A stretch of 24,446 nt of DNA from a virus. This document shows positions 1,669 to 24,101 of this stretch, in pieces. The stretch is taken from positions 1-24,446 of the IMG/VR virus record IMGVR_UViG_3300034166_001563. One strand, given 5' to 3'. A program made the position numbers and the translations under genes. Positions within the stretch are counted from its first letter, which is position 1. Each line of letters starts with the position of its first letter. The notes below the pieces were generated by a model that was given only the letters and a program-made list of their open reading frames with translations, was not told where the DNA came from and ran no database searches.

Positions 1669-1999
1669 GTCGTGCCACCCTGTACGCAGTAACTGTCACA
1701 TGGTGAGAAAAGATCGGCGCCGTGCGCACTTCATGGACCCTGTGCTCGACGTTATCAATGATGATCACATCGGAAACACGTGGGAGCCTGTCGCCAACAA
1801 GCCACGGTAGCTTTATCGTGTATTCGGTCTCCATCCGAGCACTGGTCGAGCCTTGCTCGAAGTCAACCTTGTTTTCATCAAGAAAGCACGGCATGTTGGA
1901 CCAAACGAAAACCTGATTCTTGGTTGGGCTGCCGTCGGCAGCATGCCCAGTGTTTGTTTCCCTACGGAGAGTTGCCTTCAAATTAAGGGCAGGTATCAT
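1658..1999 (-). CDS. Head closure / stopper-like connector protein
   Basis: A 113-residue, mostly beta-rich protein. Size, position and the pattern of an N-terminal strand (LKATLRRET), a central polar segment and a final DxxIIIDNVEHRV strand pair resemble SPP1 gp16-like stoppers, which seal the connector after DNA packaging. It overlaps the upstream adaptor gene by 4 bases (ATGA-type) and the downstream gp10-like gene by 11, so the three genes look translationally coupled. The call rests mainly on order and size; there is no catalytic motif to confirm it. Confidence 0.55.
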   Translation of the reverse strand: MIPALNLKATLRRETNTGHAADGSPTKNQVFVWSNMPCFLDENKVDFEQGSTSARMETEYTIKLPWLVGDRLPRVSDVIIIDNVEHRVHEVRTAPIFSHHVTVTAYRVARRGV

Positions 2000-2916
2000 C
2001 GAAGCGTCGTGTTTCTATACCCCTCAAGTAGACCGATAGCCTGTGGGGGTATGCTTCCGCCATGAATCTCTCGCACTGGGCGTGAGGTCCTGATACTAAT
2101 GTCCCCAATATCTGCGCTGGCAACCCCGGCAAATCCCTGCTTGGCAAGGCTTGCAAGGCCAAGAGATTCGGTTGTGATGATGGCGGTTGCGTCCTTGATG
2201 TCGTCAGGAGGGGTAGCAAATCCGTAGGTATAAGTGATTTCGGCGACAGGGACAATAAGCCCCATGTTAACTATTGCAGGAAACAGCGAGTATGTAACTG
2301 AGGCAAGAGACGTAACCTCAACGTATCCGGCCGTGTAGTTAACGAAAAGATCGGTCAGCTGGAATGTCGCCTTCTGTCCAGTTGTTACCCAGACATCCAT
2401 GCCCTGAACGGATACGACTGGTCGGTTGTTTGGATAAACCCGGCGGGTATCTTGACGATAATTGTGCTTCTCAGTTGCGCGTTGGAGTCCAAAGGTCTGG
2501 CCGCAGAAGCCGTCGATCACCTTGCTGGCAATGCGGATGTGGCTTTCGATCTGGTCATCGCTTACGGTGCTTCCGTCCGGATTCATCAGGGACGCCATCT
2601 CGTAATCCTTGAACTCGTCGACGGTGAGATACCCAAGGTTCTTCCCCTGAATTGGGGACGCTTGCCACGAACCGTAGGTGTTGCTCGTTGGGTTATATGA
2701 TCGCCAGTTGTACCATTGGCCAGGGAAGCCGGTATCGTCCCGGTACGTGTAGGAGGTAATCGATGCGTTCAGGGACAAGAGCGTTGGGAGAATTTCCCAG
2801 GTGCCGCTAAGTGATGTTGCCTGAGCCGAGGTGTCTGCCCGTCCAAACTGAATGCGTGTGGAGCCCGACCCAACCAGGGTCGAGGCGGTCGGAAGGGAGA
2901 GCTTTATCTTGTTCAT
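1996..2916 (-). CDS. Head-tail connector (adaptor) protein
   Basis: A 306-residue protein. The section from about residue 95 contains YLTVDEFKDYE, then a helix-rich stretch with IRIASKVIDGFCG. This is the usual start of gp6/gp15-type adaptor proteins, which form the ring below the portal. The C-terminal half includes PDDIKDATAIITTE, typical of the long helix of this family. The first 90 residues, rich in Ser, Thr, Tyr and Trp, are extra compared with usual adaptors of 100-200 residues and may be a separate beta domain. No convincing ribosome site precedes the ATG. A strong hairpin lies in the gap between it and the upstream gene. Confidence 0.6.
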   Translation of the reverse strand: MNKIKLSLPTASTLVGSGSTRIQFGRADTSAQATSLSGTWEILPTLLSLNASITSYTYRDDTGFPGQWYNWRSYNPTSNTYGSWQASPIQGKNLGYLTVDEFKDYEMASLMNPDGSTVSDDQIESHIRIASKVIDGFCGQTFGLQRATEKHNYRQDTRRVYPNNRPVVSVQGMDVWVTTGQKATFQLTDLFVNYTAGYVEVTSLASVTYSLFPAIVNMGLIVPVAEITYTYGFATPPDDIKDATAIITTESLGLASLAKQGFAGVASADIGDISIRTSRPVREIHGGSIPPQAIGLLEGYRNTTLR

Positions 2917-2933
2917 GTGTCTATTGTGGCTGA

Positions 2934-2972
2934 CCGCCGTAGTTTATACCGATTTCTCGGCTTCTACGGCGG
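2934..2972 (-). other. Two-tier hairpin between head genes
   Basis: CCGCCGTAG at 2934-2942 pairs perfectly with CTACGGCGG at 2964-2972. An inner stem CCGA/TCGG (2949-2952 with 2957-2960) closes a TTTC loop. It sits in the 64-base gap between the 119-residue protein gene and the adaptor gene. There is no T-run on the minus strand after it, so it may be a processing or attenuation structure rather than a classical terminator. Confidence 0.5.
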
Positions 2973-2980
2973 CCCCCACG

Positions 2981-3340
2981 TTATAGCTTCTCGACAATCT
3001 CTGCGCCAGCAGCCTGGGCAGATTCGAGCTCAGATCCCCTGACGGCAGCGTAGCCGTCAACGAACCGAATAAAAACGCCATCCCCTATGTGAAGGGAAGT
3101 CGCTTCCGTGTACTTAACTCGCCATCGAGAATCTGGGTCGACGCTCTTCGCTGTTGCGATTGACGCCTTGACAAATTTCTCAACCTTTTTCTCTTCCTTT
3201 GGAGTTAGCACTGGCTCTTCGGCCGGTGCCTCCGGAACAAGAACCGCCTCGTCGAGAGAAACAAGAACTGCCTCTTCGACCGGGGCTTCCTCAGCAACCG
3301 GCTCCGATACTAGCTTTACGTCGTTAACAATCTTTACCAT
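2981..3340 (-). CDS. Small acidic protein of the head operon, unknown
   Basis: A 119-residue protein between the capsid and adaptor genes. Residues 12-55 are a low-complexity Glu, Val, Ala and Pro segment with the repeated elements AVLV and EAPAEEP. A Lys/Glu-rich patch follows, then a compact C-terminal domain (residues 70-119) with RWRVKYTEATSLHIGDGVFI. An AGAGGAG ribosome site lies 7-8 bases before the ATG. Position after the major capsid gene is common for decoration or head-fibre proteins, but no signature proves this. Function unknown. Confidence 0.75.
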   Translation of the reverse strand: MVKIVNDVKLVSEPVAEEAPVEEAVLVSLDEAVLVPEAPAEEPVLTPKEEKKVEKFVKASIATAKSVDPDSRWRVKYTEATSLHIGDGVFIRFVDGYAAVRGSELESAQAAGAEIVEKL

Positions 3341-3351
3341 ATTTTCTCCTC

Positions 3352-3388
3352 TAAAAGAACGAGGCGAGCGAGCCTAAGCCCACTCGCC
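3352..3388 (-). terminator. Hairpin plus T-rich tract after the capsid gene
   Basis: On the minus strand GGCGAG (3388-3383) and CTCGCC (3368-3363) form a stem, followed by TCGTTCTTTT. This lies between the capsid gene and the next head gene. A partial terminator here would set capsid messenger above the downstream connector genes. The stem is only 6 bp and the T-run is interrupted, so termination would be incomplete. Confidence 0.45.
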
Positions 3389-3417
3389 CCATTCTCAGAC
3401 CTTAGTCTCTATCTAGA

Positions 3418-4650
3418 TCAGACAGCGACGCGGATCTTGCCGTTGAACTGAGGAGCCTTAGCAGCCAAGCCGTACATCACAAACATGATATAGAGCCGGG
3501 TCAGCGCGCCACCCACACCAACAGGGATCTCAAGGGTCGTGATCGAGTCCGAACCGAGGTAAGGCATCGACCAGGTGTCCTCGTCGACGACATACATGTC
3601 GCGGAGGTTGACGCTAGAAACGGTGTACGAGCCGATCGAGTCGCCAGGAACGGCGAGGAGCGGAAGTGCACCGGCTGGGGTCACGACTGACCCGAAGCCA
3701 AGACCAGCCTGGCCGACTTCACCAGCACCCGGATAACGGATAAGGTTCGTCAGCTCGTTCTGGTAAGCAGCAGCATCCGTAGGCGAAAGAATGATCGCCG
3801 ATGGGTTGCCGCCGTTGTTCAGGATCGAGGCAACGGTGTCGTTGATGGCAGCCGTGTACGTCGAAGTTCCCTTCGTCGTAATTGGGTTGCCAGCAGCAGC
3901 GGCCGAACCAAGAACCTTGCGAAGGCCGTCGAAGCCGTTCGCATCGTACGCGCCGAGCTCTACACCGGCAGTACCGGTCGAGGACGAAGCGTTACCCTGG
4001 AAGAGGGTCTTCTGGAGCTTGTGGGCAATTGCCGTCACGCCGCCCGAAAGCTCGGTGGCAAGGCCGTCAAACCCAGCACCACCCTGCGTGATCGCAAACT
4101 GCGACTTGAGGGTGATACCACGGCGGGTCGCAAGGACCGCAACGTTCGTGGTCTGGCGGGCATAGGTGTTGGTGTCATCCGTCACCGTGCCAGCTTCAGT
4201 CATGAACGCTGCATCGCCGTAAGCGGTCTGCTGATTGTAAGCGTGAACAAGTCCGTTGGCGCCTTCCTTGCGGATGCGGTCAAAGAACGGGAATCGCTTT
4301 ACGAACAGCGCGTAGAGCATTGGCTCGAGGTCCTGGCGGATAAGCGCAGCGCCGCCGCTAGCATCGAGCACCTTGGCAATGTTCGGGTTAGCAACCGCAA
4401 GGCGGTTGAGAACATCGTCACTGGCCTGTCGACCGGACTGCTTACCAGCCTGGACGTCAAGCATCTTCTTTACATCGTTCGAGTCCATCGAAACGAACTT
4501 CTCGCGCAGCTCGCGCTGTGCGACAAGGGCGCTCACGGAATCGAACGAGTCTGCCTGTGCGTCGTCCTTGCCGACAACACCTGCAGGGGCCGCATTAAGG
4601 CCCTCGAGTTCCTTCTCCAGGCCCTCGAGCTTCTCTCGAATCTCAGACAT
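3418..4650 (-). CDS. Major capsid protein, HK97 fold
   Basis: A 410-residue phage_capsid-type protein. The N-terminus (MSEIREKLEGLEKELEGL) is a short coiled coil like the HK97 delta domain. The body shows family features: a segment around residues 110-135 (ALFVKRFPFFDRIRK), then an N-arm/E-loop-like region with TEAGTVTDDTNTY, then a P-domain helix and an A-domain with ILSPTDAAAYQNELTN. It ends in IPVGVGGALTRLYIMF before a basic tail. The gene begins directly after the protease stop codon (TAA abutting ATG), with GGAGAAG as ribosome site. The order protease then capsid is the standard arrangement. Confidence 0.93.
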   Translation of the reverse strand: MSEIREKLEGLEKELEGLNAAPAGVVGKDDAQADSFDSVSALVAQRELREKFVSMDSNDVKKMLDVQAGKQSGRQASDDVLNRLAVANPNIAKVLDASGGAALIRQDLEPMLYALFVKRFPFFDRIRKEGANGLVHAYNQQTAYGDAAFMTEAGTVTDDTNTYARQTTNVAVLATRRGITLKSQFAITQGGAGFDGLATELSGGVTAIAHKLQKTLFQGNASSSTGTAGVELGAYDANGFDGLRKVLGSAAAAGNPITTKGTSTYTAAINDTVASILNNGGNPSAIILSPTDAAAYQNELTNLIRYPGAGEVGQAGLGFGSVVTPAGALPLLAVPGDSIGSYTVSSVNLRDMYVVDEDTWSMPYLGSDSITTLEIPVGVGGALTRLYIMFVMYGLAAKAPQFNGKIRVAV

Positions 4651-6015
4651 TTATTTCTTCTCCAAAATAGCCTGAATATACGGGCTCAACCAAGGGGCAT
4701 CAATCCCCTTCTTCGCCGGTACATCCGTAAGTATTGACTTTCGGCCAGCTGGTGACTTTAGAGCAAGCTCCAAAAGCTTCACCGCATGCTCGAGGTCCTT
4801 CTCAAGCTGCTCCTTCTCCTCCAAGAGTTCGGTCGCGGCGGTATTTTCCACCACTACCTCCTCTGCGGGAACGGAAGCAACAGCCTCTTCAGCGACCACG
4901 GCGAGATCCGCCTCTTCGGCGGGCGTCTCTGTAGCCTCTACGTGATGATCAAGGGACTTCGTCGTCTCATCGACAATTCCGGCCTCGACCGATTCGGCCG
5001 CTGGTGCAGCCTCATACTCTAGATAGGCCTGCACCCACCCAGCAGCATACTCAATGTACTTCGCTCGATCTTCGTTTGCCTCTTCAGACTTAACTGAATC
5101 GAGCTCGCCGACAACATTCTTAAGTCGATCAGCGACTGGCATGGCGCCCTTCTCTTCGATCACTGGCTCTGGCACTGAGGACGCAGGGATTGGAAGCTCG
5201 CGCTCCTTCCCGTCCTGGCCGGAAACAGTTACCGTGACACGGGTTGCCTTTTCAAGCGTATCGCTCACGTTTTCTACCTCATTTCCTGCACTGGCGGCCT
5301 CTTCGGGAGCCGGTGCGATCTCTTCTGTAGACGGATTAGCACTAGGCTCCCCGCCGATAACATCCGCCCCAGAAGCCTCGTACGACCCGTCGGCTTCGTG
5401 GGTAACAGAATCACTCATGGCACTCTTCTCAGAGTCACCCTCTACGCCCCCAGCCTTCAGGGCGTCACCAAGCTCACCAGCCTGATCGGCGCTTCTGAGG
5501 CTCTTGAGTGCGTTCTGGAGATAGGACCTCTGGTTCGCCGGAATGCCGACGATGCTAGACTCAAGAAGGTTGACCTTCTCTATAACGTATGTATCCAAGC
5601 CACTAGAGTCCTTTCGCTTGGAGACCTTCTCCACGCGAGCGCCAATCGACATTCCCAGCTTTACGCCACGCTTGATGGCCTTATAGGCCTGCATGGCTGC
5701 TGGGTTCTCATCTTCAGGGCAAACCTTAATGTCAATATCAAGATCGTAGACGTCTAGGCCGGTGTCAGCGTCGAGACGCTTAACAATTCGTGCGTCGGTA
5801 ACAGAACCAAAGAGGTCCTCAGGGACGTTGTAGTTATGGTTGAGGAACACGGTCATATTCTGCTTTGCCGTATCCGCCATTGACTTGATAGCATCAAGAG
5901 TGATCTCATCACCTTGTCGATCCCTAATCGTGGATGACGTAGTCCCGGAGACGTATAGGTCCCCGTTGTCGGTCTCCCGTACCTTTAGGGCGTTGGTGTA
6001 AAGCTTGAAATCCAA
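4651..6015 (-). CDS. HK97-family prohead protease with long acidic C-terminal tail
   Basis: A 454-residue protein. Residues 1-175 match the S78 prohead protease: IRDRQGDEI near 30-38, catalytic-type His in FLNHN (His60) and Ser in LLESSIVGIPAN (Ser153/154). It would cleave the capsid delta domain during head maturation. The remaining 280 residues are unusual: an acidic Ala/Glu/Val-rich low-complexity tail, then a Leu/Glu coiled coil near 395-425 and a conserved-looking end (APWLSPYIQAILEKK). This is likely a fused scaffold or capsid-binding segment. The start is TTG, 5 bases after GGGGAGG; an overlapping ATG is out of frame. Confidence 0.88.
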   Translation of the reverse strand: MDFKLYTNALKVRETDNGDLYVSGTTSSTIRDRQGDEITLDAIKSMADTAKQNMTVFLNHNYNVPEDLFGSVTDARIVKRLDADTGLDVYDLDIDIKVCPEDENPAAMQAYKAIKRGVKLGMSIGARVEKVSKRKDSSGLDTYVIEKVNLLESSIVGIPANQRSYLQNALKSLRSADQAGELGDALKAGGVEGDSEKSAMSDSVTHEADGSYEASGADVIGGEPSANPSTEEIAPAPEEAASAGNEVENVSDTLEKATRVTVTVSGQDGKERELPIPASSVPEPVIEEKGAMPVADRLKNVVGELDSVKSEEANEDRAKYIEYAAGWVQAYLEYEAAPAAESVEAGIVDETTKSLDHHVEATETPAEEADLAVVAEEAVASVPAEEVVVENTAATELLEEKEQLEKDLEHAVKLLELALKSPAGRKSILTDVPAKKGIDAPWLSPYIQAILEKK

Positions 6016-6050: not shown

Positions 6051-6079
6051 ATTGTATGACTGTTCTATTGACTAGTCAA
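6051..6079 (-). promoter_or_regulatory. Sigma70-type promoter of the head operon
   Basis: On the minus strand TTGACT (6079-6074), a 17-bp spacer and TACAAT (6056-6051) form a near-consensus promoter. It lies about 36 bases before the TTG start of the protease gene. The -35 box lies inside the 26-bp palindrome at 6061-6086, so a repressor bound there would block it. Confidence 0.75.
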
Positions 6080-6086
6080 CAGAACA
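6061..6086. promoter_or_regulatory. 26-bp near-perfect palindromic operator
   Basis: TGTTCTATTGAC, then TA, then GTCAACAGAACA: 12-base arms with a single mismatch around a perfect TTGACTAGTCAA core. It covers the -35 and most of the spacer of the leftward head promoter. It also lies about 105 bp upstream of the rightward -10 box. The geometry is that of a dimeric repressor site. The regulator is not known; HTH proteins at 9780 and 10037 are candidates. Confidence 0.65.
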
Positions 6087-9558: not shown

Positions 9559-9787
9559 CATGTTTGTCGCAAAACAGCTGTTCGGCAGCGATGTATGCGG
9601 ACACCCTGACTGCTTTAACCGGAAGGGCGCTGGCAATAAAATGGCCGCCGTCCAGAATCTCGGTCCAGTCATAAAGACACCGCATGGAGACACCCACACA
9701 AAGTGCTTCTTTAGGCACCTTGCAAGCAACGAAGAGCGGGTTTCGGACGACCTCGTACCGGCCGCAGAGGAGCGCATCGATGAGTGA
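9551..9787 (+). CDS. Small Cys/His protein, unknown
   Basis: A 78-residue protein with CGHPDC near residues 16-21 and a further Cys near 52. It has a GGAGAGG ribosome site 4 bases before the ATG. It overlaps the HNH gene by 8 bases and the next gene by 8. It may bind a metal through CxxxxC plus His residues. No family recognised. Confidence 0.65.
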   Translation: MADMFVAKQLFGSDVCGHPDCFNRKGAGNKMAAVQNLGPVIKTPHGDTHTKCFFRHLASNEERVSDDLVPAAEERIDE

Positions 9788-10040
9788 AAAGTTGAATCAG
9801 GACCAGATCTGCGTTGACTGTGGCGCAGCTACGTCCACAAAGAATACGCTTCGGTGCTGGCCGTGCAGCCGCGAGTACCTTTCCGGTATTCACGCTGCCC
9901 CATTCTGGGACCGAGTCGCTAAAATCCGAGAGCTTTCCTCCGGGGGCAGGACGATTACGTCCATCGCGAAGGAACTTGGCATCAGCAGGAACCGTGTGTA
10001 TCAACTGCTGGAAAGGGCCAAGAAGCGAGAGCCGAAGTGA
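9780..10040 (+). CDS. Zinc-ribbon plus helix-turn-helix protein
   Basis: An 86-residue protein. The N-terminus has two Cys pairs (CVDC and CWPC, residues 10-30), like a zinc ribbon. Residues 50-80 hold a helix-turn-helix of the resolvase/sigma-region-4 type (TITSIAKELGISRNRVYQLL). It is a likely DNA-binding regulator. The ATG at 9780 has AGAGGAG upstream and overlaps the previous stop; a longer in-frame form from 9684 reads through the previous gene and is not preferred. Confidence 0.75.
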   Translation: MSEKLNQDQICVDCGAATSTKNTLRCWPCSREYLSGIHAAPFWDRVAKIRELSSGGRTITSIAKELGISRNRVYQLLERAKKREPK

Positions 10041-10300
10041 GTCGGCTGAGCGGCCCAGAGCACCAGGGGCGCCGCTTGCAAGAAAAGATCAGGTCTGATA
10101 AGGTCTGGGTAATGCTCAAGAAAACTGGGCTTAAGCGGGCGAAGATCGCCGAAATGCTTGGCGTGAGTCTTGGGTATTTGAATCAGGTACAATACGGACA
10201 TAGTCCTATGTCGAAGCCACTAAGGAGAAAACTATCGAGGCTTTTTAATATGACAGAGCAGGATTTGTTTGAAGATTGGGTAGATAAGGAGAGTAAGTAA
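10037..10300 (+). CDS. XRE/Cro-like helix-turn-helix regulator
   Basis: An 87-residue protein with a lambda-repressor-like HTH near residues 33-60 (RAKIAEMLGVSLGYLNQV), followed by KPLRRKLSRLFNMTEQDLFE. This is the usual end of Cro/C1-type domains. The GTG start overlaps the previous TGA (GTGA). It may bind one of the palindromes in this window. No dimerisation or cleavage domain is present, so it is more Cro-like than CI-like. Confidence 0.78.
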   Translation: MSRLSGPEHQGRRLQEKIRSDKVWVMLKKTGLKRAKIAEMLGVSLGYLNQVQYGHSPMSKPLRRKLSRLFNMTEQDLFEDWVDKESK

Positions 10301-17473: not shown

Positions 17474-18082
17474 TTACCCCTTTTGGCTGTCTGGGTACCC
17501 CTTGAAGTTTCCCAAGGCCTGGAAATCACCGGTGTCCTGCCAGCCCTCGACAACATGGGGCCGCATATCCCCGTAGGCCTCGAGGACGTCAATCATCTCT
17601 GAGCTACGGAGCGATCGGATCATATCGTGGAGCTTTTCAGCGTCATCGAACCGGTAGAGCCCAATGCAGACCTCTCCGGTTGCAGCCCCGCGAGTCCAGC
17701 GGACGGTGTTGTGGTAGTCCCAGACACGACGCGATGGAGCCTCAGCGACTCCAACCCAAGAACCAGGAGCGCTTGGGATCTCTGGCAGAACGGTATCTCC
17801 GTAAATCACCGTAATCGGTCCCTGGACGCCCGTATCAACGAGATATCGTTCCAATGCACGGGCTGGTCCACGGGTATCGTTGGTTTCGACGATTGGCCCA
17901 CGCCATCCGCTCAGATAGATTTTTCCTGCCTCGCCAGGGCGAACCACCACGCCAGCGAGTCCCCCCTTGAGTGCGCGCATATGCCACTCCAGAACTGTGA
18001 CCCCGGCAGCCTGGACCAGGAGCTTGGAGTAGCCGTTGAGGCGCGTGGACTTCCCTGCAGCGAGAACGACGACGTTATCCAT
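17474..18082 (-). CDS. Sugar nucleotidyltransferase-like protein
   Basis: A 202-residue protein with the NTP-transferase entry motif VVLAAGKSTRL (residues 5-15), followed by YSKLL (substrate Lys position) and VIYGDTVLP near 100 (metal Asp). This is the fold of MobA and sugar-1-phosphate nucleotidylyltransferases, but shorter than a full RmlA-type enzyme. It probably activates a sugar or similar group. ATG 18082 overlaps the glycosyltransferase stop by 8 bases; the longer frame from 18235 is the shadow of that gene. Confidence 0.75.
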   Translation of the reverse strand: MDNVVVLAAGKSTRLNGYSKLLVQAAGVTVLEWHMRALKGGLAGVVVRPGEAGKIYLSGWRGPIVETNDTRGPARALERYLVDTGVQGPITVIYGDTVLPEIPSAPGSWVGVAEAPSRRVWDYHNTVRWTRGAATGEVCIGLYRFDDAEKLHDMIRSLRSSEMIDVLEAYGDMRPHVVEGWQDTGDFQALGNFKGYPDSQKG

Positions 18083-18650
18083 TGATGATCCTCTTGACTT
18101 CCTCATAGCCTTCGCGGTTATGGCTTTCGTGGGTCCAGCCATCGTCGATGCGATAGGTCCAGGTGATCTCAGGGACGCACTTGAACTTCGCCCCGGCTCG
18201 ATATGCCTCGACCCAGAAGAGCCAGTCATAGCCAAAGACCTGCTTGAACATGCCGATCTTGTTGAAGACGCTCTTGCGGACCAGGGCGTTGTGACTGACG
18301 TTGTTGTCCTTCAGGAGGCTCTCGGGATCAAACGGCTTGTTGTACCAGCCGGTGTAATTTGCGCCGTCCGCATACGAATAGATGATATCCACATCTGGGC
18401 TAGCCTCCGCCATCAGTCGCTCCAGGTGATGCGGATGAAGCAGGTCGTCGTCGTCGAGGAGCTGCACCCACTCAGTCGAAACCCGGCGAACCAGAGAGTT
18501 CTTCGTCCACCATCCACCGCGTTGGTGGAGATCAACCGAAATCAAGTGCTCAGCCGGAAGGAGCGTTTGGGCGCGCACCGACATAATCGCCTCGCCAAGC
18601 AGGCGGGTCCGCATCGGCGTACTCGCGGTGACAACTGTTACATCGCTCAT
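18075..18650 (-). CDS. Family 2 glycosyltransferase
   Basis: A 191-residue GT-A type enzyme: VTVVTASTPMRTRLLGEAI at the N-terminus and acid cluster DDDD at residues 66-69, the GT2 sugar-nucleotide/metal site. FGYDWLFWVEAYRAG near 140-155 matches the GT2 catalytic-base region. It would transfer a sugar from a nucleotide donor, perhaps made by the following gene. Acceptors in phages include virion proteins, modified DNA bases and host surface. No membrane segment, so cytoplasmic. It appears to be translated from a leaderless message. Confidence 0.85.
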   Translation of the reverse strand: MSDVTVVTASTPMRTRLLGEAIMSVRAQTLLPAEHLISVDLHQRGGWWTKNSLVRRVSTEWVQLLDDDDLLHPHHLERLMAEASPDVDIIYSYADGANYTGWYNKPFDPESLLKDNNVSHNALVRKSVFNKIGMFKQVFGYDWLFWVEAYRAGAKFKCVPEITWTYRIDDGWTHESHNREGYEEVKRIING

Positions 18651-19595: not shown

Positions 19596-20003
19596 CTACC
19601 AGGCGGTCGCTGGCTGCTTTACCTCTGACGAGTGTGTCCAGCGGGAATCGCCTTCGACGAGCTCGCGCACCTTGGCGATTGCCTCTGCCTCGCTGCGCAT
19701 CGCGAATCGGTTGGCTGGGCAATCTAGTCGCTCCGACCAGAATCCTCGCTCGTCGCGCTTCTGCCAGATGTGCGAGAAGTATGGCGTTCCCATCGGGCTC
19801 ACGGTCACGGTGATGTACTCGCGGTACTCGGCGACTTCGCTGTCGACCTGATTTCCCATCGCGTCGGTGAAGCGGTTGTAGTAGCCGTCGCGTCGGAACT
19901 CTGGTCGTGGCTCTGCCGCGCGCGGCGCCGCGACCTGGGCTGCCTTTTCGGTGCGCTTCTGGTCTACGCCGACGATTGCGAGGAGCGTTGCTACGAAGTT
20001 CAT
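19596..20003 (-). CDS. Hypothetical protein of the small-gene arm
   Basis: A 135-residue protein with a GAAGGAGAG ribosome site before ATG. Residues 1-13 are hydrophobic (MNFVATLLAIVGV), a weak membrane or signal-like start. A basic linker follows (about 15-38), then a domain with many Tyr, Phe and Trp (EYREYITVTVSPMG, HIWQKRDERGFWSE). It is the only gene behind the class II promoter at 20064-20092. No family recognised. Confidence 0.7.
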   Translation of the reverse strand: MNFVATLLAIVGVDQKRTEKAAQVAAPRAAEPRPEFRRDGYYNRFTDAMGNQVDSEVAEYREYITVTVSPMGTPYFSHIWQKRDERGFWSERLDCPANRFAMRSEAEAIAKVRELVEGDSRWTHSSEVKQPATAW

Positions 20004-20020
20004 TTCTCTCTCCTTCTTTT

Positions 20021-20056
20021 GAGGGGTCGGTGGCGAGTGCCACCGTTGACCCCCTC
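20021..20056 (-). other. 5'-end leader hairpin, two-tier
   Basis: On the minus strand GAGGGGGTC pairs with GACCCCTC (one bulge) and inner GGTGGC with GCCACC around an ACTC loop. The predicted RNA start is near 20057, so the hairpin begins at the very 5' end. It also starts with GAGGGG like the leaders at 20599-20615 and 23366-23382. Confidence 0.6.
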
Positions 20057-20063
20057 TACTTGT

Positions 20064-20092
20064 ACAATACTAAACCTTTATACCCTTGTCAA
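20064..20092 (-). promoter_or_regulatory. Class II arm promoter (a)
   Basis: TTGACA (20092-20087), 17-bp spacer, TATTGT (20069-20064). Flanking AAAAGGGGTTGACA is shared with the other arm promoters. It drives the 135-residue gene. Confidence 0.85.
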
Positions 20093-20113
20093 CCCCTTTT
20101 CCCAAAATAGTAG

Positions 20114-20129
20114 GTTAAATTTTCTTAAC
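20114..20129. promoter_or_regulatory. Class II box GTTAA-N6-TTAAC
   Basis: GTTAAATTTTCTTAAC, an inverted repeat, 21 bp upstream of the -35 of promoter (a). The TAA stop of the upstream mini gene lies inside it. Confidence 0.65.
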
Positions 20130-20279
20130 ATTTGCCTCAGGTTTGCGTTCTACTGCGCTCTGTATAGGCAGCACTTTGATGACGAAGCTGGCGGCGATTG
20201 TAATCGCGGCGGCCGCGGCTATTGCCGTTAGCAGCAGCAGCGCGACAATCGCTAGCAGCGACCGTGCGAGCCGTTGCAT
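20115..20279 (-). CDS. Mini membrane protein with AVER tail
   Basis: A 54-residue frame, third in its operon. The N-terminus is short and basic, then a long hydrophobic stretch from about residue 8 to 35 (SLLAIVALLLLTAIAAAAA), like a signal anchor. The tail LPIQSAVERKPE is similar, in the same frame, to the repeated LLIARAVERE and LLTERAVERD of the gene at 21868-22014. This supports translation of both. It overlaps the preceding mini gene by 28 bases. Ribosome site weak. Confidence 0.5.
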   Translation of the reverse strand: MQRLARSLLAIVALLLLTAIAAAAAITIAASFVIKVLPIQSAVERKPEANVKKI

Positions 20280-20416
20280 CCAGCGATTGCCAGAACGGCG
20301 ATCGTCGCGACTACGAGCAGGATGCCGAGCAGGATGCGCCTTCGCTCCTGCTGCCGGTTCCAGGTCTCCGTTTCGCGAAGGATAAGTTGCTCGCGGTAAG
20401 TGAGTAGCCGCTTCAT
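20252..20416 (-). CDS. Mini membrane protein with lipobox-like motif
   Basis: A 54-residue frame, second in its operon, with GAAGGAG before ATG and ATGA overlap with the previous stop. Residues 1-27 are charged (MKRLLTYREQLILRETE). Residues 28-46 are a hydrophobic helix (ILLGILLVVATIAVLAIAG) followed by Cys. AIAGC fits a lipobox, but the charged lead is too long for a normal lipoprotein signal. It could be a small lysis or membrane-modifying protein; unproven. Confidence 0.6.
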   Translation of the reverse strand: MKRLLTYREQLILRETETWNRQQERRRILLGILLVVATIAVLAIAGCNGSHGRC

Positions 20417-20577
20417 TTTGTCTCCTTCTTTCCGAACTGGCTCATCGTGTCTACGACGGTCCAGGCGATGCCTTGCTCGCGAACCGCGTCGAGCATCATC
20501 TGGCGCGCGTGCCAGAGGCTTCGCTTCTTGGCGGCTTCCTTGGCTTCGGTCCGAAGTTGCTTCTTGCTCTTGCTCAT
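20413..20577 (-). CDS. MSKSKK-type small basic protein, copy 1
   Basis: A 54-residue protein. Basic N-terminal helix (MSKSKKQLRTEAKEAAKKRS), then WHARQMMLDAVREQGIAWTV. It is a paralogue of the first gene of the class II operon at 23174-23344, with the same leading residues and similar spacing to the promoter. AGAGGA lies 8 bases before ATG; an in-frame ATG at 20607 lies inside the leader hairpin. Function unknown. Confidence 0.65.
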   Translation of the reverse strand: MSKSKKQLRTEAKEAAKKRSLWHARQMMLDAVREQGIAWTVVDTMSQFGKKETK

Positions 20578-20598
20578 TTTGCTGTCCTCTCTGCTTGT

Positions 20599-20615
20599 GA
20601 AGGGCACTTCCCCTC
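20599..20615 (-). other. 5'-end leader hairpin
   Basis: GAGGGGAAGTGCCCTTC on the minus strand: 6-bp stem with one G.U pair and an AAGUG loop, at the predicted RNA 5' end (about 20616). Compare 23366-23382, where the same position is G-C. Confidence 0.6.
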
Positions 20616-20622
20616 TATGTAT

Positions 20623-20651
20623 ACAATACTAAAAGCTCTTACGCTTGTCAA
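20623..20651 (-). promoter_or_regulatory. Class II arm promoter (b)
   Basis: TTGACA (20651-20646), 17-bp spacer, TATTGT (20628-20623). It drives the three mini genes 20577 to 20115. Confidence 0.85.
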
Positions 20652-20662
20652 CCCTTTCGAAG

Positions 20663-20678
20663 GTTAAATTTTCTTAAC
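20663..20678. promoter_or_regulatory. Class II box GTTAA-N6-TTAAC
   Basis: The same 16-mer as at 20114-20129, but only 11 bp upstream of the -35: exactly 10 bp, one helical turn, nearer. The TAA stop of the 20674-20928 gene lies in it. Confidence 0.65.
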
Positions 20679-20928
20679 CTCGGATGTTGTTGCGCTCGGA
20701 GCTGCGAGCGATTCGCTCCTCATCGCGGCTCCATCGGGCGAGCTGCTCGTAGCGCTCGGCATCGGCTCGCCATTGCGCAGCGTAGCCTAGGCTGTCCTCG
20801 GCGTTGGTGCGGCGGAAGAACTTGTCGCGCATCGACCGGGCGTCGCGCTCATAAGACATCGCGAGCCGCATCCAGTTGTCGGCTGTCTTGATGTGGCTGT
20901 TGCGCTTGACGAATTCTGCCTGTGTCAT
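20674..20928 (-). CDS. Hypothetical charged protein
   Basis: An 84-residue Arg/Glu/Ala-rich helical protein with GAAGGAGAGG before the ATG at 20928. The longer frame up to 21228 reads back through promoter (c) and its box and is rejected. YAAQWRADAERYEQLARW suggests a coiled coil. Only gene behind promoter (c). Function unknown. Confidence 0.7.
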   Translation of the reverse strand: MTQAEFVKRNSHIKTADNWMRLAMSYERDARSMRDKFFRRTNAEDSLGYAAQWRADAERYEQLARWSRDEERIARSSERNNIRG

Positions 20929-20985
20929 TTGTCCTCTCCTTCGTTCGCGTCGCGGTCGGCTGACTGCTTCCCGTTCGACTCTTCT

Positions 20986-21014
20986 ATTATACCTCACCGT
21001 TGTACCCTTGTCAA
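20986..21014 (-). promoter_or_regulatory. Class I arm promoter (c), full consensus
   Basis: TTGACA (21014-21009), 17-bp spacer, TATAAT (20991-20986): perfect sigma70 consensus. The leader begins AGAAGAGTCGAACGGG, shared with promoter (g). Confidence 0.92.
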
Positions 21015-21024
21015 CCCCTTTCTC

Positions 21025-21048
21025 AAAATGTCTCACCTGGCGCAACAG
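21025..21048. promoter_or_regulatory. Class I box (c)
   Basis: 24-bp box, minus strand CTGTTGCGCC...ACATTTT, with a 17-bp dyad GTTGCGCCAGGTGAGAC (21046-21030). Ten bp upstream of the -35. Near-identical to the boxes at 21783, 22727 and 23853. Confidence 0.75.
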
Positions 21049-21314
21049 CATCTTGGGGGCTGCCGGGACGGCGATTTCGCTGGCTGGCGCGCGCGCGTTC
21101 GACGAAGACGACGAGACGAAGACGACGCGATGTATATATAATCTGCCCAAAAAAAACACCCCTTCAAAAAAACTGAAACAAACGCCAAAAAAACTTCCGG
21201 CGCCGGTTTCGCTTCCGGCAAATCGCAAGCTGCAAATGCATCGATGGATTTATGGGGATGCCCCGAGCCAGGGCGGTCCTGACCCGGGGCGGTGTGAGGC
21301 GATGGACGCGCCTC
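21049..21314. other. Non-coding stretch with A-tracts and hairpins
   Basis: No gene seen. It has a GACGA-rich purine run, TATATATAAT at 21131-21142, A8 and two A7 tracts (21149-21193; T-tracts on the transcribed minus strand), TTCCGGCAAATCG at 21213-21225, and a GC hairpin GCCCCG/CGGGGC (21260-21290). GCCGG/CCGGC followed by T7 on the minus strand may stop the 21315-21683 transcript. Confidence 0.45.
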
Positions 21315-21683
21315 CTAGAAATCCTCCTCCTCGTCCTCGTCGTCGAATCCCATTTCGATTTCGACTTTGACGATGCGACCGTCGTCGTTGTATGTCGCGT
21401 AGACTGGATAGACGCCGTCTCCGTATCCGCTGGAGAATGCGACGGCTAGCCCGTGCATCATCGATCCTGCCGAATCCTCGCCGAGAGTTACGGCGCAGGC
21501 GCCGTTATAGTTCAGCGGTACTTCGGCTGGGCTTCCTGCCTGGATCTTGTCGATCTCCTCCTGGTCGTAGTCGACCTCGAAGTCACTCTTGATGTAGCAT
21601 GGATCGACGATCATCAGCTGGCCGCTATCGACTCCGACTGAGCCGATTCGAACGCGCGTGTTTCGTGGTCCGTCTTTTGACAT
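21315..21683 (-). CDS. DUF4241-like hypothetical protein
   Basis: A 122-residue protein with AGGAGG before ATG. VDSGQLMIVDPCYI (about residues 18-31) and AVAFSSGYGDGVYPVYA (about 80-96) resemble the DP-containing beta-sheet proteins often called DUF4241, frequent in actinobacteria and their phages. The last 10 residues are acidic (DDEDEEEDF). Only gene behind promoter (d). Biochemical role unknown; the family call is tentative. Confidence 0.7.
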   Translation of the reverse strand: MSKDGPRNTRVRIGSVGVDSGQLMIVDPCYIKSDFEVDYDQEEIDKIQAGSPAEVPLNYNGACAVTLGEDSAGSMMHGLAVAFSSGYGDGVYPVYATYNDDGRIVKVEIEMGFDDEDEEEDF

Positions 21684-21714
21684 CTTCTGTCCTCCTAATA
21701 CTACGGTTTCGTCG

Positions 21715-21731
21715 CCGAGGACCGCCCCCGG
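21715..21731 (-). other. Leader hairpin of promoter (d)
   Basis: CCGGGG and CCTCGG pair on the minus strand (one G.U) around a 5-base loop: the same 6+5+6 size as the class II leaders, though with different sequence. Confidence 0.5.
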
Positions 21732-21743
21732 TTCGACGATTCT

Positions 21744-21772
21744 AAAATACTACAGATGGAAACCGTTGTCAA
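21744..21772 (-). promoter_or_regulatory. Class I arm promoter (d)
   Basis: TTGACA (21772-21767), 17-bp spacer, TATTTT (21749-21744). It drives the DUF4241-like gene. Confidence 0.83.
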
Positions 21773-21782
21773 CCCTTTTCTA

Positions 21783-21806
21783 AAAACGTCTCACCTGGCG
21801 CAACAG
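21783..21806. promoter_or_regulatory. Class I box (d)
   Basis: Same 24-mer as the other class I boxes with one change (C for T at 21787), 10 bp upstream of the -35. TTCCGGCAAATCG follows 4 bp beyond it. Confidence 0.75.
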
Positions 21807-21848
21807 GCTATTCCGGCAAATCGGACTAGGCTGAGATCCGGAAAACGC

Positions 21849-21880
21849 TAGGGGCCCCGCTGAAAGCCTAGGGTCCCCGC
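21849..21880. terminator. GC-rich direct and inverted repeat after the four-gene operon
   Basis: CTAGGGGCCCCGC and CTAGGGTCCCCGC lie 19 bp apart; GGGGCCCC is a palindrome, and GGGGACCC can pair with the other copy. It overlaps the last stop codon. It has no T-run, so it may be a stability or pause element. Confidence 0.35.
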
Positions 21881-22014
21881 CCAGATTCGCGTTCTACTGC
21901 GCGCGCTATAAGCAGATCGCGTTCTACGGCGCGCTCTGTAAGCAGATCCTTCGCTATCTCCTGGTAGGCGCGAAGCTCCTGTCGCTTTTCTTCGCATTTG
22001 CGTGCAATTCGCAT
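21868..22014 (-). CDS. Mini protein with duplicated AVER repeat
   Basis: A 48-residue frame, last of a four-gene operon, overlapping the preceding gene by 61 bases. The N-terminal half is charged and helical (MRIARKCEEKRQELRAYQE). The C-terminal half is a tandem repeat, DLLTERAVER then DLLIARAVER, coded by the 30-bp DNA repeat at 21888-21947. A related peptide ends the 20115-20279 gene. No clear ribosome site. The stop lies in a GC-rich repeat. Confidence 0.45.
   Translation of the reverse strand: MRIARKCEEKRQELRAYQEIAKDLLTERAVERDLLIARAVERESGRGP
21888..21947 (-). repeat. Two tandem 30-bp repeats
   Basis: Units 21888-21917 and 21918-21947 both read CGCGTTCTAC...AGCAGAT with a few changes. 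Being a multiple of three, they duplicate ten codons. A third, diverged relative lies at about 20145-20172 (GCGTTCTACTGCGCTCTGTA). Confidence 0.75.
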
Positions 22015-22142
22015 AGGGCTACTCTGGCCTTGATGAAGCGACCGCCTTGGAATGGCGTCAGGATCGTGACGCGGCGCTCGGCGGGGACGCCGCAGAAGCG
22101 TCCTCCGCCGGGTTGCCAGTCGACGATTGCTCGGCAGCTCAA
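21954..22142 (-). CDS. Small CxxC-like protein, unknown
   Basis: A 62-residue frame starting at TTG that overlaps the previous TGA (TTGA), so coupled. It reads well: CRAIVDWQPGG, FCGVPAERRVTILTPF and ALCELHANAK, with three Cys and a His that could hold a metal. The longer frame from 22232 runs back through the zinc-ribbon gene. Function unknown. Confidence 0.6.
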   Translation of the reverse strand: MSCRAIVDWQPGGGRFCGVPAERRVTILTPFQGGRFIKARVALCELHANAKKSDRSFAPTRR

Positions 22143-22363
22143 CGCTGTCCCGGGAACTTGTTGTGGAGCCCGAAGCCCGTGAGGGCTGCGTGGACATCGT
22201 ATCCTGAGAAGTGGGCGTCGATCTGAATCCACGCCTCATACTCGCCGCACTTTCGGCAGACCTTTGTCTGGTTGTCGAAGCGCGAGAGCGCCGCCGCCCA
22301 GGTCGAGTGCTCCTCGTCGCATCCCGGGCAGTCGAACTTCTTTGGCTTAGCCTCTACTGTCAT
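22139..22363 (-). CDS. Small zinc-ribbon protein
   Basis: A 74-residue protein with CPGC (residues 12-15) and CRKCGEYEAW (36-45), a four-Cys zinc ribbon, with LSRFDN between. This CPGC...SR.DN...C..CG.xEA pattern is common in small phage proteins of unknown role. ATGA overlap with the previous gene. Possibly nucleic-acid or protein binding. Confidence 0.75.
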   Translation of the reverse strand: MTVEAKPKKFDCPGCDEEHSTWAAALSRFDNQTKVCRKCGEYEAWIQIDAHFSGYDVHAALTGFGLHNKFPGQR

Positions 22364-22641
22364 TTACCCTCCTTGATCGCCTGAGCGACCTTCAGCGCGA
22401 TTGTCGTGAAGTCCTGTGCTGCGGCGAGCTCGACTGGGAATCCAGCAGTCGCCTCTGATGCGGAGTGGTAGCCGCTATCGCTGCCGAGCGTCCATAGCGT
22501 TCCGCCGAAGTTTCCGTCGGTGTCCCGCTGGAGCGCGACCCACTGGATCGGGTTGATGTCGACTCTGGTCCAGCCTTGGTCGTTGAGCTCCGTGATGTGT
22601 CGATTCTGCTCGTCGATCATCTGCTCTTTCATCGTGCTCAT
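22360..22641 (-). CDS. Hypothetical protein, first of a four-gene operon
   Basis: A 93-residue protein with AGGAGG before ATG. The N-terminus is helical and charged (MSTMKEQMIDEQNRHI), followed by a beta-rich middle with several Trp (WTRVDINPIQWVAL) and a helical end (ALKVAQAIKEGK). No family recognised. It heads the operon behind promoter (e). Confidence 0.7.
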   Translation of the reverse strand: MSTMKEQMIDEQNRHITELNDQGWTRVDINPIQWVALQRDTDGNFGGTLWTLGSDSGYHSASEATAGFPVELAAAQDFTTIALKVAQAIKEGK

Positions 22642-22660
22642 TTCTCTCCTCCTATCCTGT

Positions 22661-22675
22661 CGGGGATTGTCCCCG
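22661..22675 (-). other. Leader hairpin of promoter (e)
   Basis: CGGGG/CCCCG perfect 5-bp stem with a 5-base loop, about 5 bases from the predicted RNA start. Confidence 0.6.
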
Positions 22676-22687
22676 TTCGACTATTCT

Positions 22688-22716
22688 AAAATACCATCCG
22701 CTTTCACCTTTGTCAA
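22688..22716 (-). promoter_or_regulatory. Class I arm promoter (e)
   Basis: TTGACA (22716-22711), 17-bp spacer, TATTTT (22693-22688). It drives four genes, 22641 to 21868. Confidence 0.83.
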
Positions 22717-22726
22717 CCCCTTTGTC

Positions 22727-22750
22727 AAAATGTCTCACCTGGCGCAACAG
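22727..22750. promoter_or_regulatory. Class I box (e)
   Basis: 24-mer identical to boxes (c) and (g), 10 bp upstream of the -35. Confidence 0.75.
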
Positions 22751-22796
22751 CAGCTCCCGGTCTGCATAGACGCGAGAGCCGCCGTTCCTCCAATCG

Positions 22797-23159
22797 CTAA
22801 TAGATGTAGGCTTGGTCGTATGCGATGTCAGCGTATGTCTGGTCGCATTCGTCGCAAGATTCGCAGCCGTGTCCGCGCGTGTCCTCCCAGTCGCTGTTGG
22901 CGCGGCATGCTGGCTTCATCTCGTCGCATCCCGCGCACTTTGAGAGCCAGGTGTCCTCGACGACGACGGCGATGAGCTGCTGGAGCGTGTCCTTTGAGAG
23001 CGTGACGAAGTGGCCTTTGTCGCAGTCGATCGGGAGGTCGAGGCAGGCGGTCCTGCGAAGAATGTCCGCGCAGAAGTCGCGAGCATCGGCGCTCGATGTC
23101 TTGTCTGTGTAGATCTCTCGGATTCGGTCGATCGAATGGTGGCTGAGTTTGATCTTCAT
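22797..23159 (-). CDS. Cys-rich probable zinc protein
   Basis: A 120-residue protein. The first 70 residues are helical (HHSIDRIREIYTDK, TLSKDTLQQLIAVVVE). The C-terminal part has CAGCDEMKPAC and CESCDEC, five or six Cys suited to a zinc site, and an end rich in Tyr. GGAGAGGA precedes ATG. Second gene of the operon from promoter (f). Function unknown. Confidence 0.72.
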   Translation of the reverse strand: MKIKLSHHSIDRIREIYTDKTSSADARDFCADILRRTACLDLPIDCDKGHFVTLSKDTLQQLIAVVVEDTWLSKCAGCDEMKPACRANSDWEDTRGHGCESCDECDQTYADIAYDQAYIY

Positions 23160-23173
23160 TTGTCCTCTCCTCT

Positions 23174-23344
23174 CTACTTCTTCAGTGCCTTGCGAAGAGC
23201 CGTCTGGCTCAGTCGCTCGTCGAGCATCCAGATCGTGCCGCCTTCCGCTGCCATCTCGAGCAGGTTCTGGCGCACTTTCCAGACCGAGTGCTTCTTCGCT
23301 GCCTCGCGAGCCTCGGTGCGCTGCTGCTTCTTGCTCTTGCTCAT
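23174..23344 (-). CDS. MSKSKK-type small basic protein, copy 2
   Basis: A 56-residue protein with MSKSKKQQRTEAREAAKKHS at the start, a clear paralogue of the 20413-20577 product. The C-terminus is longer and different (IWMLDERLSQTALRKALKK). GGAGGA lies 8 bases before ATG 23344; an in-frame ATG at 23359 overlaps the ribosome site and is less likely. It follows a class II promoter, as copy 1 does. Confidence 0.65.
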   Translation of the reverse strand: MSKSKKQQRTEAREAAKKHSVWKVRQNLLEMAAEGGTIWMLDERLSQTALRKALKK

Positions 23345-23365
23345 TGCGCTGTCCTCCATTCTCCT

Positions 23366-23382
23366 GAGGGGAACTTCCCCTC
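23366..23382 (-). other. 5'-end leader hairpin
   Basis: GAGGGGAAGTTCCCCTC on the minus strand: perfect 6-bp stem (up to 8 in DNA), loop AAGUU, at the predicted RNA 5' end (about 23383). Confidence 0.65.
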
Positions 23383-23389
23383 TATAGAT

Positions 23390-23418
23390 ACCATACCTGA
23401 TTTCTCAACCGTTGTCAA
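23390..23418 (-). promoter_or_regulatory. Class II arm promoter (f)
   Basis: TTGACA (23418-23413), 17-bp spacer, TATGGT (23395-23390). It drives the 56- and 120-residue genes. Confidence 0.83.
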
Positions 23419-23439
23419 CCCTTTTTCGCAAAATAGATG

Positions 23440-23455
23440 ATTACATTTTCTTAAC
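23440..23455. promoter_or_regulatory. Class II box (variant)
   Basis: ATTACATTTTCTTAAC: one half-site is exact and the other is changed at two positions. It lies 21 bp upstream of the -35, the same spacing as box (a). Confidence 0.6.
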
Positions 23456-23470
23456 ATTTCGCGATCTCCT

Positions 23471-23507
23471 GGGAAGAGAGCGGGCTGTTTGGCCGCGCTC
23501 TCCTCCC
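23471..23507 (-). terminator. Long hairpin after the 80-residue gene
   Basis: GGGAAGAGAGCGGGC (23471-23485) pairs with GCCGCGCTCTCCTCCC (23492-23507) with one mismatch and a bulge around a 6-base loop. It starts 6 bases past the stop codon at 23514. No T-run follows. Likely 3'-end structure that isolates this unit from promoter (f). Confidence 0.6.
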
Positions 23508-23513
23508 GGGTCC

Positions 23514-23756
23514 TCAGGCGAGCCCTTGGTCGACGAGGTCGTTGTGTGCCGCCTCATCTGCGGTGTACTCGGCTTCTGCTTTCGCGCCGAAGTCGATAGC
23601 CTTCTTGAAGGCGTTCTTGAACTGTGGCTCGAGGTTCATCGCCGCTGCGAGTCGAGCCATCTGGAGCCAGGTGAGTGCGATCGATGCGTTCTCCTCCGAT
23701 GCCTCGTTCTCCTTGTACTCTTTGAGCACCGATTCGAGATTGTCCATGTAGCTCAT
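23514..23756 (-). CDS. Hypothetical helical protein
   Basis: An 80-residue acidic helical protein, rich in Ala and Glu (YKENEASEENASIALTWLQM, FKKAIDFGAKAEAEY). It resembles a tetratricopeptide-like hairpin but is too short to be sure. ATG 23756 has GGAGG 7 bases upstream. The frame up to 23873 reads through promoter (g) and is rejected. Confidence 0.7.
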   Translation of the reverse strand: MSYMDNLESVLKEYKENEASEENASIALTWLQMARLAAAMNLEPQFKNAFKKAIDFGAKAEAEYTADEAAHNDLVDQGLA

Positions 23757-23813
23757 CGCGTGCCTCCTTTGTCTGTGTCGCGGGTTGCTCACTGCTTCCC
23801 GTTCGACTCTTCT

Positions 23814-23842
23814 ACCATACCTAATATCTCGACCGCTGTCAA
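23814..23842 (-). promoter_or_regulatory. Class I arm promoter (g)
   Basis: TTGACA (23842-23837), 17-bp spacer, TATGGT (23819-23814). The leader shares GTCGAACGGGAAGCAGT with promoter (c). Confidence 0.85.
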
Positions 23843-23852
23843 CCCCTAGCGC

Positions 23853-23876
23853 AAAATGTCTCACCTGGCGCAACAG
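23853..23876. promoter_or_regulatory. Class I box (g)
   Basis: 24-mer identical to boxes (c) and (e), 10 bp upstream of the -35. GACTAGGCTG and TTCCGGCAAA copies lie just beyond, as near box (d). Confidence 0.75.
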
Positions 23877-24101
23877 GCTGTATGGCGACTAGGCTGCGCT
23901 TCCGGCAAATCTTCCGGCAAAAGAAAGGGCCGCCGCCGAAAGCGAGTCTGGACTCTCGCGATCGACGACGGCTTGATGGCGCTCGAGGGAGGTACTCTCG
24001 AGCTGTAGCTAATGCGACGAGCATATATATAGAGCCCAAAACAAAATCGGCGCCAGACCAAAACTCGCGTCAGACCAAAACTCTCCTCCCGGCAAACCGC
24101 T
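23877..24101. other. Non-coding stretch with repeats
   Basis: No gene seen. It holds TTCCGGCAAA at 23900 and 23912, a 7-bp inverted repeat GCTCGAG/CTCGAGC (23981-24003), an (AT)-run at 24022-24030, and CAGACCAAAACTC twice (24054-24066, 24071-24083; 17-bp period). The (AT)-run followed by GAGCCCAAAA resembles 21131-21155. Confidence 0.5.

Follow-up and report, generated by a model that had tools for sequence, protein, structure and literature searches.

Promoter cassettes in the small-gene arm

The stretch that we analysed (the window) is the 24,446-bp phage fragment IMGVR_UViG_3300034166_001563 from IMG/VR, and our subject is a series of leftward promoters in its arm of small genes. The contigs compared with it include three that recur below. 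G001 (IMGVR_UViG_3300002835_000358, 44,158 bp) covers the full window at 99.97% identity and continues for 8 kb beyond it. G003 (IMGVR_UViG_3300008262_000175) is a diverged relative, with 92% identity in the core and lower identity across the arm, and G019 (IMGVR_UViG_3300010885_050120) is a distant one. The phage group has no close cultured relative: we found no nucleotide match to the arm among isolated phages, and the best capsid match among isolates is 27–29%. We found no tRNA gene that could serve as a clue to the host.

The original prediction, made from the sequence of the window, described seven near-identical leftward promoters, each driving one to four small genes. The list of open reading frames (ORFs) agrees, with 1–4 genes of about 50–140 amino acids (aa) behind each promoter. 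The prediction overlooked that the promoters fall into two classes by an upstream box, either box A (TGTTGCGYCAGGTGAGAC) or box B (GTTAAGAAAATTTAAC). The features are listed below in window coordinates, with promoters named by position; Ka/Ks is the ratio of nonsynonymous to synonymous substitution rates against the G003 ortholog.

23858..23875, minus: box A of P23814, exact copy, 15 bp before TTGACA
23814..23842, minus: P23814 core TTGACA-17-TATGGT, exact motif match
23757..23813, minus: P23814 leader with hairpin, fold z -2.83 (G001 copy)
23514..23756, minus: 80-aa gene of P23814, Ka/Ks 0.32
23471..23507, minus: hairpin after the stop codon and before P23390, terminator-like without a U tract (61-nt interval, -33.3 kcal/mol)
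23440..23455, minus: box B of P23390, 2 mismatches, 21 bp before TTGACA
23390..23418, minus: P23390 core TTGACA-17-TATGGT, exact motif match
23345..23389, minus: P23390 leader, hairpin GAGGGGAAGTTCCCCTC, fold z -2.19
22797..23344, minus: two P23390 genes, 56 aa (MSKSK family) and 120 aa, Ka/Ks 0.30 and 0.29
22750..22782, minus: hairpin after the stop codon, abutting box A of P22688, without a U tract (-21.7 kcal/mol)
22732..22749, minus: box A of P22688
22688..22716, minus: P22688 core TTGACA-17-TATTTT, exact motif match
22642..22687, minus: P22688 leader, hairpin CGGGGACAATCCCCG, fold z -2.17
22139..22641, minus: two clear P22688 genes, 93 and 74 aa, Ka/Ks 0.11 and 0.44
down to ~21850, minus: 1–2 further overlapping ORFs of P22688, from the ORF list
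21788..21805, minus: box A of P21744
21744..21772, minus: P21744 core TTGACA-17-TATTTT, exact motif match
21684..21743, minus: P21744 leader, stem re-paired in G003 by compensatory change
21315..21683, minus: 122-aa DUF4241 gene of P21744 (Pfam PF14025), Ka/Ks 0.31
21260..21290, minus: hairpin 3' of the DUF4241 gene, terminator-like without a U tract, from the interval fold
21030..21047, minus: box A of P20986
20986..21014, minus: P20986 core TTGACA-17-TATAAT, perfect consensus
20929..20985, minus: P20986 leader, weakest fold (z -0.59)
20674..20928, minus: 84-aa gene of P20986, cassette absent from G003
20663..20678, minus: box B of P20623, including the stop codon of the preceding gene, 11 bp before TTGACA
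20623..20651, minus: P20623 core TTGACA-17-TATTGT, exact motif match
20578..20622, minus: P20623 leader, hairpin GAGGGGAAGTGCCCTTC, from the fold
20115..20577, minus: three P20623 genes, 54 aa each, from the ORFs; the first is an MSKSK paralog with Ka/Ks 0.13
20114..20129, minus: box B of P20064, 21 bp before TTGACA
20064..20092, minus: P20064 core TTGACA-17-TATTGT, exact motif match
20004..20063, minus: P20064 leader, long hairpin, fold z -5.10
19596..20003, minus: 135-aa gene of P20064, Ka/Ks 0.42

Core promoters

The exact pattern TTGACA-N17-TATNNT occurs seven times in the window, always on the minus strand and at the positions first proposed (20064, 20623, 20986, 21744, 22688, 23390, 23814), with no match on the plus strand or elsewhere in the window. 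Allowing up to one mismatch gives nine matches, against 0.65 in shuffles. G001 has the same seven and no further exact match. Across 154 other phage loci (2.36 Mb), which served as background, the pattern has a density of 0.36 per 24.4 kb and in no case occurs more than four times within 4 kb of a locus, while here seven co-oriented promoters stand in less than 4 kb (3.8 kb). The prediction would have fallen if matches were equally frequent at random sites, and neither the shuffles, G001 nor the background loci gave such a result.

A search over the wider genome and its relatives extended the array. In G001, the array continues past the window end with a further seven promoters built alike, of which six have box A and one has box B. 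Their -10 boxes are TAATGT, TAAGTT, TAGTGT or TACGGT, and they bring the array to at least 14. G003 has seven good promoters and one degenerate copy.

The description of the promoters as near-identical is right for the core, where all seven window promoters have GGGTTGACA, GT at spacer positions 4–5 and GTATnnTA. It does not extend upstream, where two unrelated boxes are found (four copies of A, three of B). The proposed AAAGGGG-TTGACA context also stood in part: GGG precedes TTGACA in 7/7, but the A-rich AAAGGG only in 6/7, with P23814 having CTAGGGG instead. The cores are near consensus, and that of P20986 has a perfect -10 (TATAAT). By reading the sequence, we saw a UP-like ATTTTGnGAAAaGGG before the -35 in most window promoters; other promoters lack it. 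Many near-consensus -35 and -10 boxes at fixed spacing, clustered and co-oriented, are what a T4-early-like array of sigma-70 type would look like.

With such cores, the promoters could be plain, strong, constitutive early promoters as in T4, with the boxes being extended polymerase contacts or passive remnants of duplication and no dedicated regulator. T4 early promoters do act this way (PMC2988021), the UP-like stretch fits, and duplication of cassettes would by itself copy the boxes. However, the boxes persist where the UP-like stretch is lost (box B with the 11-bp gap, and the outer box A promoters), and box A is nearly invariant while the 15-bp gap and the spacer diverge. We consider this account a serious one, but unlikely.

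Upstream boxes

Box A has the form TGTTGCG[C/T]CAGGTGAGAC, with one variable base, and stands before 10 promoters in G001 and 4 in G003. With distances of 3–22 bp to TTGACA allowed, 12 copies had a gap of 15 bp, and the other two, which are orthologous and precede a 206-aa gene, had one of 5 bp. Two sequences have an additional TTGAC inside the box A gap. For box B the gaps are 21, 11 and 21 in the window and 11, 11, 11 and 21 in G003; a further G001 copy has a gap of 10 with an 18-bp spacer, so that the distance to the -10 stays on the lattice. The orthologous promoters at 35015 in G001 and 38793 in G003 differ by exactly this 10-bp step. Gaps of 15/5 and 21/11(10) fit a site on a fixed helix face relative to polymerase, with few independent events behind them. 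Because the steps equal one helical turn, they suggest a bound protein that contacts polymerase. Every copy of either box that we found is upstream of a TTGAC promoter, and none overlaps the -35, the -10 or the start.

The boxes looked palindromic by eye, and we dropped this as evidence for an operator after shuffles matched the symmetry in 502/2000 cases for box A and 378/2000 for box B. Scans further afield gave matches that we took as chance. Box A had three scattered matches in bacterial genomes of unrelated phyla, with gaps of 18–20 bp. A scan of IMG/VR for box B returned 40 stretches, which outside the species group were nearly all single and were not inspected singly.

The boxes might also be operators, at which a phage repressor silences the arm either at a later stage of infection or during lysogeny. 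Repressor sites near repeated phage promoters are commonplace, and the phage encodes XRE-like and helix-turn-helix (HTH) proteins. A site near -60 would not directly block polymerase, though, and the boxes stay clear of the -35, -10 and start. The scanned proteins of this incomplete genome include no integrase or known immunity repressor. An upstream protein that contacts polymerase may also repress a strong promoter, as with phi29 p4. We judge a repressor operator to be quite unlikely.

In two G001 genes box A overlaps the 3' end (L038 6384-6400 and 7767-7800, at ~36.4 and 37.8 kb). It is translated there as VASGET, in a three-HTH protein and a DUF7249 protein, and the copy at the three-HTH gene is the one with the 5-bp gap.

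Leader hairpins

The leaders fold more strongly than arm controls, with a mean folding z of -2.09 in 21 leaders vs -0.25 in 81 control windows from the arm (P = 3.6e-7). In 10/21 leaders the first paired base is 8 nt past the -10, and in 14/21 it is at 7–8 nt, which is the expected position of the start site. For the P21744 ortholog pair, the stem CCGGGG/CCTCGG has become CTTGGG/CCCAGG in G003 with pairing kept. We considered whether the leader inverted repeats are DNA operators and disfavoured this because the pairing is retained through changes in sequence and loop length. Box A is found with leaders of the GAGGGG.. and the GTCGAACGGG.. type and box B with GAGGGG.. leaders, so the units are modular. 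Direct reading showed AGGAGG-type sites upstream of the start codons. Strong hairpins without a U tract follow the stop codons before P23390, P22688 and P20986.

Genes, duplication and possible exchange

The genes downstream of the promoters are under purifying selection. Ka/Ks for the G003 orthologs of arm genes is 0.11–0.44, from which we conclude that the arm ORFs are real genes. Pfam, PHROGs and PADLOC placed almost all of the arm proteins in unknown families.

One promoter per cassette, as the original prediction had it, is borne out by the at least 14 promoters in G001 and by the distant relative, where the layout occurs with other upstream elements. Spread by duplication also finds support. 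Four repeats of a 113-nt promoter-leader unit, beginning at the box edge, have 65–81% identity, and a cassette of promoter plus gene has been duplicated to give the MSKSK paralogs (73.5% over 170 nt). Two G003 box-B promoters are 71% identical to each other, more than either is to any G001 promoter, which suggests partial homogenisation of promoters within G003. The P20986 cassette is absent from G003, with a degenerate box-B promoter in its place.

Repeats that begin at the box edge, a replaced cassette and homogenised promoters are also what would be seen if the boxes were recombination sites for cassette exchange and had no regulatory role. That would leave the fixed one-turn spacing to the -35 unexplained, and we found no box without a promoter. 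We therefore think this explanation improbable.

Wider phage family

Capsid relatives of the phage have about 65–74% identity. In 38 of them we did not find a TTGACA-17-TANNNT array of this build as such, while homologs of arm genes (Api92-like, RadC, the three-HTH protein and the 206-aa gene) occur in the arms of several. The corresponding arm of G019 spans 18 kb and has 22 copies of GGGGN0-4TTGAC, all of them on its coding strand; the other 28 kb of the contig add a single copy. Its promoters have GGGG-TTGAC[ACGT] in place of TTGACA-17-TANNNT, and its leaders again fold better than controls (P = 4.5e-4). The upstream repeats differ, being arrays of the heptamer GGTTAGG and TGTAACAAT. Judging by these motifs, the layout reaches beyond this species, with upstream elements that are particular to each lineage.

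A different element, TTCGGTGGATT, is repeated in the relatives G005 and G009, along with GTTATGN arrays. At L203 (G005) 795-5296 and at L208 (G009) this element takes the form TTCGGTGGATT-N-TGGCATTGT with a leader hairpin before small genes. It is unlike the TTGACA type and is possibly a regulator-dependent promoter. Phage-specific intergenic repeats, each in one genome region, are found in several relatives: tandem heptamers GTTATGN and GGTTAGG, GGGGTATGGGG, and TGAATGA/GGGGTAA. The regions are L203 (G005) 667-5181, L220 (G019) ~19225-26863 of the contig, L216 (G022) 74121-79601 of the contig and L218 (G021) 72-78 kb of the contig.

Comparison with known arrays

The original prediction pointed to repeated early promoters of actinophages, and that link is an analogy only. 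Cluster K mycobacteriophages such as Adephagia have about seven intergenic copies of extended start-associated sequences (ESAS; PMC11373665, PMC3203893). Like our cassettes, ESAS have a conserved SigA-like promoter with 17–18 bp spacing and an extra conserved element before single small genes. They differ in having a 15–17 bp imperfect inverted repeat and in adjoining a 13-bp start-associated sequence. Here, the box lies at about -60, comes in two classes without significant dyad symmetry and is joined by a hairpin leader, and the promoters number seven in less than 4 kb and 14 or more in the arm. A clear inverted repeat is present in the leader only, and direct reading upstream of the start codons found AGGAGG-type sites and no start-associated 13-mer GGGATAGGAGCCC.

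Cluster O mycobacteriophages such as Corndog have 17-bp palindromic repeats (PMC4351075). The resemblance is in the many short repeats, with intergenic ones concentrated in a leftward small-gene arm that has several SigA promoters. Most Corndog repeats are away from promoters, whereas every box that we found adjoins one.

T4 early promoters (PMC2988021) are similar in being many strong host-polymerase promoters before small early genes, with extended conservation, including, in part of our promoters, a UP-like stretch. The array here differs by its two lineage-specific boxes at one-turn steps, its hairpin leaders and its cassettes all running in one direction in one arm. The class I and II intergenic repeats of halovirus HF2 are likewise two repeat classes, each a promoter unit, and the nine tested were active (PMC8707807), but these are archaeal promoters with no sequence in common. 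An early-gene motif of archaeal viruses that marks anti-defence genes is comparable in that small early genes each stand behind a virus-specific promoter sequence, with a conserved core and flanks that vary between viruses (PMC11065993). It belongs to TATA/B-recognition-element promoters, and the anti-defence role is one described for the archaeal viruses.

Of these systems the cluster O repeats are the looser comparison. Since defining features of ESAS and of cluster O are lacking and the array is T4-like with an added site, we regard it as an unusually regular variant of a type of early-promoter array already described in phages.

Proposed working of the array

Our preferred reading, to which we give a probability of about 0.5, is that of a probably early array of cassettes, in a tailed phage, read by host polymerase, with a phase-locked site for a putative regulator and a leader hairpin that protects the mRNA. 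Each cassette would consist of box A or B at about -60, GGG TTGACA-N17-TANNNT, a 5'-terminal hairpin leader, AGGAGG and 1–4 small genes. RNA polymerase with the host primary sigma factor would start each cassette on its own, most likely soon after infection. The small genes would then be made strongly and in parallel, and cassettes could be gained, lost and duplicated without disturbing their neighbours. As the boxes hold one DNA face relative to polymerase, a trans-acting factor most likely binds them, touches polymerase and controls how strongly or when two interleaved subsets are expressed. A probable role of the leader hairpins is protection of the mRNA 5' end, and the hairpin closing several cassettes could end the transcript. 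The sequences themselves show the motifs, their spacings, the hairpins, the conservation and the duplication; from these we infer the early timing, the trans-acting factor and its sign of action, and the hairpin function. The term regulon in the original prediction likewise presumes a shared factor. Nearby HTH proteins (G001 36384-36896, window 9699-10040 and 10037-10300) could serve as the box-binding factor.

Several points weigh against this reading. The promoters are predictions from sequence, and near-consensus cores in principle need no activator. The one-turn steps come from few independent events, some promoters being orthologous or homogenised. Box dyad symmetry is not above chance, box A is known from this species group alone, and the HTH proteins are candidates. 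Leader folds are weak at P20986 and a few other promoters.

Going further, and tentatively, the small-gene arm may serve a whole family of uncultured phages as a modular store of promoter cassettes. Upstream sites peculiar to each lineage would address these: boxes A and B in this phage, tandem heptamer arrays and TGTAACAAT repeats in its relatives. Regulator and site would change together, and wholesale, from one lineage to another, with the genes and the core layout left in place, and the two phase-locked sites would divide one arm between two sub-regulons that interleave.

Early promoters in repeated copies have been described before. What is unusual is the regularity of the unit here, in which almost every cassette has a phase-locked upstream site and a hairpin leader. 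Gene by gene, the layout picks out the small unknown proteins that the phage would co-express, and it thereby proposes candidates for host takeover or counter-defence. Boxes that differ between lineages also offer a natural test of how phages can rewire an entire regulon in one step.

Other features of the arm and window

Beyond the window, the G001 arm (L038 5699-11316) encodes the three-HTH protein, a RadC-like JAB protein, DUF7249, an Api92-like protein and DUF3846, and relatives have homologs in their arms. A 34-nt repeat with GTAGAACGC (minus strand) has three arm copies in the window (20138-20171, 21882-21915 and 21912-21945), and a similar GTCGAACGC is directly upstream of some G001 box A copies. 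Two of the box A promoters are preceded by long intergenic gaps (window ~21135-21200 and 24015-24090) in which T-rich runs are followed by TATATATA. These recall the AT-rich elements that have been suggested to be origins in cluster O phages.

Two further promoters have neither box A nor box B. One is a leftward TTGACA-N16-TATGCT with TG before the -10 (window 18684-18657), kept in G003 and facing a glycosyltransferase-like gene (18075-18650). The other is the putative promoter of the structural operon, TTGACT-N17-TACAAT, which faces protease and capsid genes. Its -35 (6079-6074, minus strand) is overlapped by a 26-bp near-perfect palindrome, TGTTCTATTGACTAGTCAACAGAACA (window 6061-6086), which is identical in G003 and is likely a repressor operator of that operon.

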